From assembly GCA_035570235.1 (NCBI GenBank), contig DATMML010000124.1:1-32734 (forward strand): 32,734 bases of DNA, read 5' to 3'. The notes beneath the pieces were generated by a model. It was given only the letters and a program-made list of their open reading frames with translations, was not told the origin of the DNA and did not search any database. The position numbers and the translations under genes were made by a program. Below, piece by piece: positions 3,559-7,383 of this stretch. The DNA comes from Vicinamibacteria bacterium (GTDB lineage: Bacteria; Acidobacteriota; Vicinamibacteria; Fen-336). How positions within the stretch are numbered: position 1 is the first letter of the stretch; each line of letters opens with the position of its first letter.

Positions 3559-4788
3559 GTGATCCCTGTTGAAACGGCGTTGGAGATCGTCCTCTCTCAC
3601 ACGCCGACGCTGCCCACTGAAGAGGTCCTGTTGGCGGACGCCCTAGGTCGCGTTCTGGGGGAGGACGTCCGCTCCGACGTCGATCTGCCTCCTTTCGATC
3701 GCGCGGGGATGGACGGCTACGCCCTGCGCGCCGGCGATGCCGCCCACGCCCCCGCCACCCTAGAGGTCGTCGGCCAGGCCCGCGCCGGGCAGTGGCCGGA
3801 GCTGGTGCTGGCGGCGGGCCAGGCCCTGGAGGTGATGACGGGCGCGCCCGTGCCCGCGGGCGCCACCGCGGTGCAGCAGGTCGAGCACACGCGCGTCCTC
3901 GATCGCGGTCGGCGAGTCGAGATCGTGGTTGCCGTGGAAACGGGCCAGAATATCGCGCGCCAGGGGAGCGAGGTGCGGGCGGGCGACCTTGTCCTCCCGC
4001 GGGGGGAGACCCTCGACCCCGCGGCCATCGGGGTGCTGGCCGCGGTGGGCAAGGGCCGGGTCCGGGTGGGGCGGCGGCCCACGGTTTCGGTGCTGGTCAC
4101 GGGGGACGAGCTGGTGGACGTGTGGGAACGGCCGAGCGGCGGCCGCATCCGAAACAGCAACGGGTATGCGCTAGTGGCGCAAGCCCGCTGGGCGGGGGCG
4201 GACGTGACCAGCTTGGCCGTCCTCCCCGACCAGGTGGACCGGATCGCGGAGGGCGTGCGCGAGGGCTTTCGCTCGGACGTGCTCATCCTCTCCGGAGGCG
4301 TCTCCGAAGGCGCCTTTGACTTCGTGGAGGAGGTGCTGGCCCGTTTCGATGTGGGGTTGCTGTTCACGAAGGTCGCCATCAAGCCGGGGGCGCCCCTGGT
4401 CTTCGGCCGCCGGGGGGACAAGCTGGTCTTCGGCCTACCCGGCAACCCCGTCTCCGCCCAGGTGACATTCGATATCTTCGTGCGCGCCGCCCTCCTTCGC
4501 TTGCAGGGAGCCCGCCAGGTCTCGCGGCCTACGGTGGAGGTCGAGCTCCTAGAGGCCGTGAAGAACCGCTCGGGACGAAAGGCCCACCTCCCTGCGCGGG
4601 TCCGATCCGAGGGGGGGCGGCTCCTGGCCAGCCCCGTCTCCTCCCGGGGCTCCGCCGACCTCGTGGCCCACGCCAAGGCCAACGCCCTCCTGGTCCTCGA
4701 CGCCACGCGGACACGGGCGGAGGCCGGGGAAAGGGCGCCCGCCCTGCTCCTCGGGAATTTCCTGGAACGTGACGGCACGCCAATCTAA
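3559..4788 (+). CDS. moeA: Molybdopterin molybdenumtransferase MoeA
   Basis: MoeA inserts molybdate into adenylylated molybdopterin in the last step of molybdenum cofactor synthesis. The protein is 409 residues, the usual length. Seen: the N-terminal VLLADALGRVLGEDV, then PPFDRAGMDGYAL (about 43-55), EVMTGAPVPAGATAV (about 93-107), RQGSEVRAGD, the MPT-binding core with VLVTGDEL and GRIRNSNG, ILSGGVSEGAFDFV, and the C-terminal KPGAPLVFG...GLPGNPVSA. Translation starts at GTG 3559; an AGGGGG-type ribosome-binding site lies about 8 nt upstream. The last 20 nt overlap moaC, so the two form a cofactor-synthesis operon. No molybdate transporter or other moa/mob genes are present in the window. Confidence 0.96.
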   Translation: MIPVETALEIVLSHTPTLPTEEVLLADALGRVLGEDVRSDVDLPPFDRAGMDGYALRAGDAAHAPATLEVVGQARAGQWPELVLAAGQALEVMTGAPVPAGATAVQQVEHTRVLDRGRRVEIVVAVETGQNIARQGSEVRAGDLVLPRGETLDPAAIGVLAAVGKGRVRVGRRPTVSVLVTGDELVDVWERPSGGRIRNSNGYALVAQARWAGADVTSLAVLPDQVDRIAEGVREGFRSDVLILSGGVSEGAFDFVEEVLARFDVGLLFTKVAIKPGAPLVFGRRGDKLVFGLPGNPVSAQVTFDIFVRAALLRLQGARQVSRPTVEVELLEAVKNRSGRKAHLPARVRSEGGRLLASPVSSRGSADLVAHAKANALLVLDATRTRAEAGERAPALLLGNFLERDGTPI

Positions 4789-5269
4789 GGCCGCACGGGC
4801 TCCCCGCTTGAGCCACCTCGACGCGCGGGGGGGGGCGCGCATGGTGGATGTGTCGACGAAGCCCGCCACCCTGCGGGAGGCGGTGGCGCGCGGCCGCATT
4901 CGCATCGCCCCTGCCGCCCTGCGTCTCCTCCGTGCGGGACGGCTGCCCAAGGGGGGCGTGATCGAGACGGCCCGGTTGGCCGGCATCCTGGCCGCCAAGC
5001 GGACGGGGGATGTCATTCCCCTCTGCCACCCCCTCCCCCTCACGCACGTGGACGTCGACCTTCTTCCGCGGCGCGACGGCTTTGCCATTGTGGCGCGGGT
5101 CAGGACCGAGGCCCGGACGGGGGCGGAGATGGAAGCCCTCCACGCGGTCGCGGTGGCGGCCCTCACCGTCTACGACATGGTCAAGGCCGCGGACCGAACG
5201 ATGGTCATTACGGACATCGTCCTCGTCAAGAAGACGGGCGGCAAGAGCGGGGAGTATCGGCGGGGGTAG
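4769..5269 (+). CDS. moaC: Cyclic pyranopterin monophosphate synthase MoaC
   Basis: MoaC, together with MoaA, converts GTP to cyclic pyranopterin monophosphate, the first stage of molybdenum cofactor synthesis. The 166-residue length is normal (about 160). Seen: RMVDVSTKPATLREAVARG near the N-terminus, KGGVIETARLAGILAAKRTGDVIPLCHPLPLTHVDVD in the middle, and EMEALHAVAVAALTVYDMVKAADR followed by KKTGGKSG near the end. The common YDMCKA reads YDMVKA; this cysteine is not part of the strictly required set that I know of. The start is GTG 4769, inside the end of moeA (20-nt overlap), which points to coupled translation. Stop is TAG at 5269. Confidence 0.95.
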   Translation: MTARQSKAARAPRLSHLDARGGARMVDVSTKPATLREAVARGRIRIAPAALRLLRAGRLPKGGVIETARLAGILAAKRTGDVIPLCHPLPLTHVDVDLLPRRDGFAIVARVRTEARTGAEMEALHAVAVAALTVYDMVKAADRTMVITDIVLVKKTGGKSGEYRRG

Positions 5270-6325: not shown

Positions 6326-6382
6326 CGAAGGCCCCGCGGGAGGCGACCGTTCGCGCTCTCAGGCTCGTGGGAGGTAGCGGCG

Positions 6383-6553
6383 ATGGCGGTCTGTCCCGAG
6401 TGCGAGGCGGACATAGAGATAGACGAGTACGACGTGGACAAGGACGACATCATCAACTGCCCCGAATGCGGCGTCGACCTCAAGGTGGTGGGCCTCTCGC
6501 CCCTCGAGCTCGACCCGGCCCCCCCCGAGGACGAGGACGAGTGGGAGGAGTGA
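6383..6553 (+). CDS. lysW: LysW-like amino-group carrier protein
   Basis: A 56-residue acidic zinc-ribbon protein. Seen: CPEC at residues 4-7 and CPEC at about 26-29 (four zinc-binding cysteines), then GVDLKVVGLSPLELDPAPP and the C-terminal tail EDEDEWEE. This matches the LysW family, whose members end in EDWGE and carry aminoadipate or glutamate on the terminal glutamate's gamma-carboxyl during lysine or arginine synthesis. Here the terminal E and the W two residues before it are kept, but the glycine is E. A GGGAGGT site precedes the ATG. The stop and the larE start share one base (TGATG), so the two are coupled. LysW normally sits with lysX/argX-type ligases, none of which are here, so the substrate is uncertain. 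It is the kind of small gene that automated calls may miss. Confidence 0.85.
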   Translation: MAVCPECEADIEIDEYDVDKDDIINCPECGVDLKVVGLSPLELDPAPPEDEDEWEE

Positions 6554-7383
6554 TGAAGAGCCCTACCCCTCCGCAGAAGGAAGGAGCGCTCGACCGTCTC
6601 CTGGCGGAGATGGGCTCGGTGGTGGTCGCCTTCAGCGGGGGGGTGGACAGCGCCTACCTCGCCGTGCGCGCCCACCGCGTGCTCCAGGCGCGGGCCCTGG
6701 CCGTGACCGCGGACTCCCCCTCCCTGGCCGAGGCCCAACGCGCCCAGGCCCGGGAACTGGCCCGCGACTTCGGCTTCCCCCACCGTCTGGTCAGAACCGA
6801 GGAGTTCGAGAACCCCCTCTACACCCGCAACGCCCCCGACCGCTGCTACCACTGCAAGGTCGAGCTCTTCCGTCATCTACTGCCCCTGGCCGCGCGCGAG
6901 GGCTACGCGCATGTGGCCTACGGGTTAATCGTGGACGACCTTGGCGAGTTCCGCCCCGGCCACCGGGCGGCGGCGGAGGCGGGGGTGAGGAGCCCCCTCG
7001 CGGAGGCGGGCCTCGGCAAGGCCGACGTCCGCCTCCTCTCCCAGGCCCTGGGCCTCCCCACCTGGGACCGGCCGGCCTCCCCCTGCCTCTCCTCGCGCGT
7101 CCCCCACGGCACGGCCGTCACTCCCGAAGTCCTGCGCCGCGTGGAGCGGGCCGAGGAGGGCTTGCGTGCGCTCGGTTTTTCGGAGCTGCGGGTCCGCCAC
7201 TTCGGAGAGCGGGCCCGCGTGGAGATCGCGCCCCTGGAGATGGCGCGGCTCGAGGAAGAAGGGATGCGGCGGGCGGTCGAGACCGCCGTCCGCGCCGCGG
7301 GTTACGCCGAGGCCTCGATCGATCCCCTGGGCTACCAGAGAGGCCGGCTCAGCCCGGGCGCCGATGTCCTCACTCCCCCTTGA
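6553..7383 (+). CDS. larE: LarE-type ATP-dependent sacrificial sulfur transferase
   Basis: LarE-family PP-loop enzymes adenylate a pyridinium carboxylate and donate sulfur for the nickel-pincer cofactor of lactate racemase. The protein is 276 residues, normal for the family. Seen: the PP-loop SGGVDS (28-33), ADSPSL (about 53-58), RCYHCK with C98 and C101, and PASPCLSSRVPHG with C178, at the position of the sacrificial C176 of Lactobacillus plantarum LarE. Three cysteines fit the [4Fe-4S]-dependent LarE type described in Thermotoga maritima; matching these cysteines to the cluster is my inference. Start is ATG 6553, overlapping the lysW-like stop. No larA, larB or larC is in the window, so a role in another sulfur-transfer reaction is possible. 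Confidence 0.87.
   Translation: MKSPTPPQKEGALDRLLAEMGSVVVAFSGGVDSAYLAVRAHRVLQARALAVTADSPSLAEAQRAQARELARDFGFPHRLVRTEEFENPLYTRNAPDRCYHCKVELFRHLLPLAAREGYAHVAYGLIVDDLGEFRPGHRAAAEAGVRSPLAEAGLGKADVRLLSQALGLPTWDRPASPCLSSRVPHGTAVTPEVLRRVERAEEGLRALGFSELRVRHFGERARVEIAPLEMARLEEEGMRRAVETAVRAAGYAEASIDPLGYQRGRLSPGADVLTPP

Follow-up and report, generated by a model that had tools for sequence, protein, structure and literature searches.

LysW carries an amino acid attached to the side chain of its C-terminal Glu, inside an EDWGE motif that is recognised by LysX/ArgX (PMC10433800). In the TtuA-TtuB system of 2-thiouridine synthesis, TtuB supplies sulfur via a C-terminal thiocarboxylate (PMC9283937). Thermotoga maritima LarE uses a CXXC-C motif to hold a [4Fe-4S] cluster carrying the transferred sulfide, so that no protein cysteine is sacrificed (PMC9283937). 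About 15% of genomes have been reported to contain larB, larC and larE without larA (PMC11796402).

We analysed a window of 32,734 nucleotides (contig DATMML010000124.1) from a Vicinamibacteria bacterium, in which a gene for a small LysW-like protein lies directly upstream of a larE gene. No description of this gene pair was found in the open-access literature searched. The small protein shares with the LysW/ArgW carriers (3wwl, 5k2m) a four-Cys zinc ribbon, an acidic tail and a W-x-E end; it differs from them in that the EDWGE motif is not intact, the terminal Glu is variable among linked homologues and the genome has no LysX/ArgX. TtuA-TtuB and the window pair both combine a PP-loop [4Fe-4S] sulfur-transfer enzyme with a small protein, here a putative partner, but the LysW-like protein, unlike TtuB, consists of a zinc ribbon and a tail that varies. 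The window LarE resembles that of T. maritima in its PP-loop SGGXDS, its CXXC-C cluster motif and its co-occurrence with larB and larC, whereas its start is overlapped by the small LysW-like gene and its genome lacks larA.

The LysW-like gene and its overlap with larE

The LysW-like gene (6383..6553, plus strand, as for all features of the window given here) encodes a 56-aa zinc-ribbon protein, MAVCPECEADIEIDEYDVDKDDIINCPECGVDLKVVGLSPLELDPAPPEDEDEWEE, with Cys residues at positions 4, 7, 26 and 29, two CPEC motifs and a short acidic tail ending in W-E-E. This confirms the length, both CPEC motifs and the C-terminal W-x-E given in an earlier note on this DNA. A ribosome-binding site, GGAGG (6370..6374), is located 8 nt 5' of the ATG at 6383. 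The protein scored 48.6 bits against Pfam Zn_ribbon_LysW (PF21344; cut-off 27) and 46.2 bits against NCBIfam lysW (TIGR01206), below the equivalog cut-off of 53.2; the solved LysW 3wwl matched it at 1.1e-10 over its full length, tail included. As judged by these matches, it is a genuine LysW homologue. Alignment of 21 LarE-linked homologues indicated that the four Cys residues are invariant; the ribbon, a few core residues and the acidic tail are what these proteins conserve.

The same genome, which has no LysX match, contains a second LysW-like gene (L116; C44:16425-16580, minus strand), located directly behind a polyprenyl synthetase gene and with a product ending in LADEDEE. Second copies resembling L116 were also found in other genomes of the window's family.

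The LysW-like gene and larE meet at GTGATG (6550..6555). Within TGATG (6551-6555), the stop codon TGA (6551-6553) of the LysW-like gene shares one base with ATG 6553, a possible LarE start; the other possible start, GTG 6550, gives a 4-nt overlap. ATGA/GTGA overlaps of 4 nt were the commonest form among relatives (23 of 35 LysW-like/LarE pairs), and by homology LarE perhaps starts at GTG 6550 instead of ATG 6553. The one-base overlap in TGATG, as noted earlier, was present, but the accompanying phrase 'fused in translation' overstated a gene overlap of 1 or 4 nt: GTGATG is a gene overlap with translational coupling and no protein fusion. At one related locus (L140; G009:C475), the LysW-like frame extends beyond the usual stop and the added stretch ahead of LarE is basic, which is likely a frameshift or an assembly error. 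In a single pair, L129, the two genes read through in one frame.

LarE and its place in nickel-pincer nucleotide synthesis

The downstream gene (6553..7383) encodes a 276-aa LarE, pyridinium-3,5-biscarboxylate mononucleotide sulfur transferase, which scored 301.6 bits against TIGR00268 (curated cut-off 150). The closest PDB entries were L. plantarum LarE and 8cnz (5udq, 3.1e-37; 8cnz, 1.5e-20). Its PP-loop SGGVDS (6634..6651) comprises residues 28-33, and S28, G29, G30, D32 and S33 were kept in >95% of 119 aligned LarE rows. The CXXC part of the CXXC-C cluster motif (Cys98 and Cys101; 6844..6855) was Cys in 119 of 119 rows, and the third Cys, Cys178 (7084..7086), in all 118 rows having a residue at that position; in the alignment to 5udq, Cys178 showed a one-residue shift from Cys176 of LarE-Lp. 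By this invariant CXXC-C motif, as in T. maritima LarE, the window LarE is of the [4Fe-4S] type. A sacrificial-cysteine LarE was rejected on the presence of CXXC-C, and the earlier statement that LarE gives up a cysteine sulfur found no support (cf. PMC9283937).

Matches to LarB (296 bits, C90) and LarC (465 bits, C42) were located elsewhere in the genome, both far from LarE, which bears out the earlier observation that no lar genes adjoin the pair; larA gave no match in the genome. Among 60 genomes of the same class, the window's own included, 55 had LarE, 53 LarC and 54 LarB, and mismatches were few, indicating that the three largely co-occur. This co-occurrence disfavours a LarE of a non-NPN (nickel-pincer nucleotide) pathway. 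Since larB and larC are present elsewhere in the genome and LarE contains CXXC-C, the window LarE is most likely an ordinary LarE that makes NPN, as suggested by its motifs and co-occurrence. The genome of the window and many relatives were alike in having larB, larC and larE dispersed and no larA found.

Distribution of the pair and of unpaired LysW-like genes

Adjacency in the 60-genome set was determined by joining gene coordinates by hand. The LysW-like gene lay directly upstream of LarE on the same strand in 36 of the 55 LarE-bearing genomes, and so the arrangement, whose frequency across genomes the earlier note had proposed to count, is not peculiar to this genome. The pair was found in eight families (f1, f4, f5, f7, f9, f10, f12 and f13) and in three gene contexts, for which part of the neighbour-gene names were assigned by reading the sequences. 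In f1 it is preceded by moeA-moaC-PD40 and followed by tatA-pal-STK; in f10 it is preceded by moeA-moaC-penicillin acylase; in most other families a P-type ATPase and a PilZ regulator come before it, and a membrane protein and pal after it. The molybdenum cofactor genes moeA and moaC, at 3559-5269 of the window, lie shortly upstream of the pair; they have this position in f1 and f10 genomes and are absent there in other families. A LysW-like gene stood directly upstream at all LarE loci of this type that were read, 34 besides that of the window. The adjacency is more than chance, with an identical gene order recurring in dozens of genomes.

Among 80 LarE loci from many phyla, L020 and L028 were the sole pairs, and both grouped with the other pairs. 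A profile search combined with a loose CxxC pattern search of the fetched loci found no zinc-ribbon partner upstream of LarE in other phyla beyond these two. In a quick LarE tree of 117 rows, the pair label needed three changes, compared with ~30 when shuffled. In f38, a family of another class, a LysW-like gene precedes larE with a gap of about 190-380 bp (G164:C34, L164; G094:C37, L165). In G043 the LysW-like and LarE genes lie at contig ends, which fits a split pair, and this genome was rejected as a case of a broken pair.

The LysW-like gene was kept in the absence of LarE from the locus in four lineages: f2, f6 (genus g16), f8 and f4 (genus g26). These orphan copies kept the same neighbours (PilZ or P-type ATPase, Pal, and PyrF/PyrD or STK). 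Their dN/dS was ~0.09 in f2 and ~0.05 in f6, similar to the 0.05-0.09 of paired copies, indicating continued purifying selection in these two lineages; the f4 pair was too similar to yield a ratio. The genomes of f2, f6 and f8 contain, away from this locus, a LarE of another clade, and the LysW-like protein could still serve that LarE. In G037 and G041, each with a completeness rating of 100%, no larB, larC or larE match was obtained and the LysW-like gene was kept, in nearly alike copies (dS 0). Thus, the LysW-like protein has a role not requiring LarE beside its gene. Elsewhere in the phylum, LysW-like genes stand mostly alone among unrelated genes, f38 excepted, and the copy in G127 occurs without any LarE match.

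Both genes are gone in f11 and in f6-g40. G058 was rejected as a further joint loss: pyrF of the same locus is also missing, which probably reflects an assembly gap. The orphan gene at L182 (G037:C14) contains an internal direct duplication, in which CASTLRIAALDPR is repeated, that is absent in its sister L183. Compact lar operons with divergent LarE were observed as larC-larE-larB in G014:C81 (L153) and G016:C7, and as larE-larB-larC in G035:C1. These belong to lineages whose native locus lost LarE, and the operons look like replacement by transfer.

Roles of the two proteins

We tested the carrier reading of the LysW-like protein. No match to LysX/ArgX (TIGR02144, E <= 1e-10) was found in the genome, which is 99.6% complete, and the protein is therefore not the LysW of a lysine or arginine pathway, whose presence the earlier note had suggested checking. 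That it might be the carrier of a normal lysine/arginine pathway with its other genes lying apart draws on its homology to LysW, and is given next to no probability: besides the missing ligase, relatives having LysX contain a separate LysW directly beside it, with an EDWGE end in the copies read. This identity was rejected. The window protein ends in EDEWEE. The last residue among LarE-linked homologues was E, D, S, T, N, P or A, with non-Glu ends in several lineages, some of them in the window's own family. Glu was terminal in 23 of 35 linked copies, which together with LysW homology reaching into the tail could favour a covalent chemistry on the C-terminal Glu, activation or thiolation, carried out by LarE or some other ligase. 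However, Glu tracks the start/stop overlap: it was terminal in 20 of 23 pairs with a 4-nt overlap and in 3 of 11 without (L140 set aside), and this overlap restricts the third base of the last LysW-like codon to A or G. The terminal Glu was for this reason rejected as support. The presence of larB and larC gives LarE its usual substrate, the motif of LarE marks it as a [4Fe-4S] enzyme, and four lineages have kept the LysW-like gene at a locus from which LarE is gone. The carrier-bound sulfur or amide chemistry proposed earlier is accordingly not supported, and we consider it very improbable. By the tests available, the LysW-like protein is no amino-group carrier and appears to be LysW-derived, with the features of the carrier lost.

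A dedicated accessory of LarE fares better. An acidic zinc ribbon might dock on LarE, aid cluster loading, shield the cluster or hand thiolated intermediates to LarC, with no covalent carrier chemistry. Several observations point this way: the gene order is conserved across eight families and three contexts, often with overlap; both genes were lost jointly in f11 and f6-g40; a LysW-like gene also precedes larE in f38, in another class; and no LarE of this locus was seen that lacked the LysW-like gene. Paired LarEs were also slightly more basic (mean net -0.8 versus -2.5, relatedness not corrected for). Against it, the orphan copies argue that any such service is not exclusive: they occur in four lineages and are under selection in two, and G037 and G041 keep the gene without any larB, larC or larE. 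In addition, no LysW-like gene accompanies LarE at the loci retrieved from other phyla. We regard the accessory role as possible, short of probable. A broader form of it seems rather unlikely to us, namely that NPN synthesis, in at least one class of the phylum, recruited a LysW-derived zinc ribbon as an accessory subunit, which would dock onto [4Fe-4S] LarE, and onto LarEs of other origin that replaced it, to load sulfide or pass thiolated intermediates.

The probable explanation, in our judgement, is that the two genes have separate jobs and have stayed adjacent through an ancestral arrangement with translational coupling, in which an ordinary NPN LarE follows an acidic zinc-ribbon protein that derives from LysW and is no carrier. 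LarE would be the [4Fe-4S]-type sulfur insertase of NPN synthesis, with its partners LarB and LarC encoded elsewhere; its motifs and co-occurrence suggest that it adenylates the P2CMN carboxylates and delivers cluster-held sulfide. The small protein would be a LysW descendant that lost the carrier role, as its non-conserved terminal Glu and the missing LysX/ArgX suggest, and kept the zinc ribbon and acidic tail; its most likely function is that of an acidic adaptor or docking protein, with a partner distinct from LarE or additional to it. Separate roles are indicated by the retention of the LysW-like gene without LarE, by selection on the orphan copies and by G037 and G041, whereas the LysW-like gene upstream of all 34 LarE genes read and that of the window, through three contexts, and the joint loss in f11 and f6-g40 count against them.

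The LysW-like/LarE pair is thus a real conserved gene arrangement and poor evidence for a new carrier-bound chemistry. What has been documented is a conserved gene pair and a family of LysW-like proteins in which the features of the amino-group carrier are lost, and in genomes lacking the lysine pathway such genes are liable to be annotated as 'lysine biosynthesis protein LysW'. The genome of the window joins the group with larB, larC and larE but no larA. If the accessory reading were true, NPN synthesis would have a fourth component in these bacteria.
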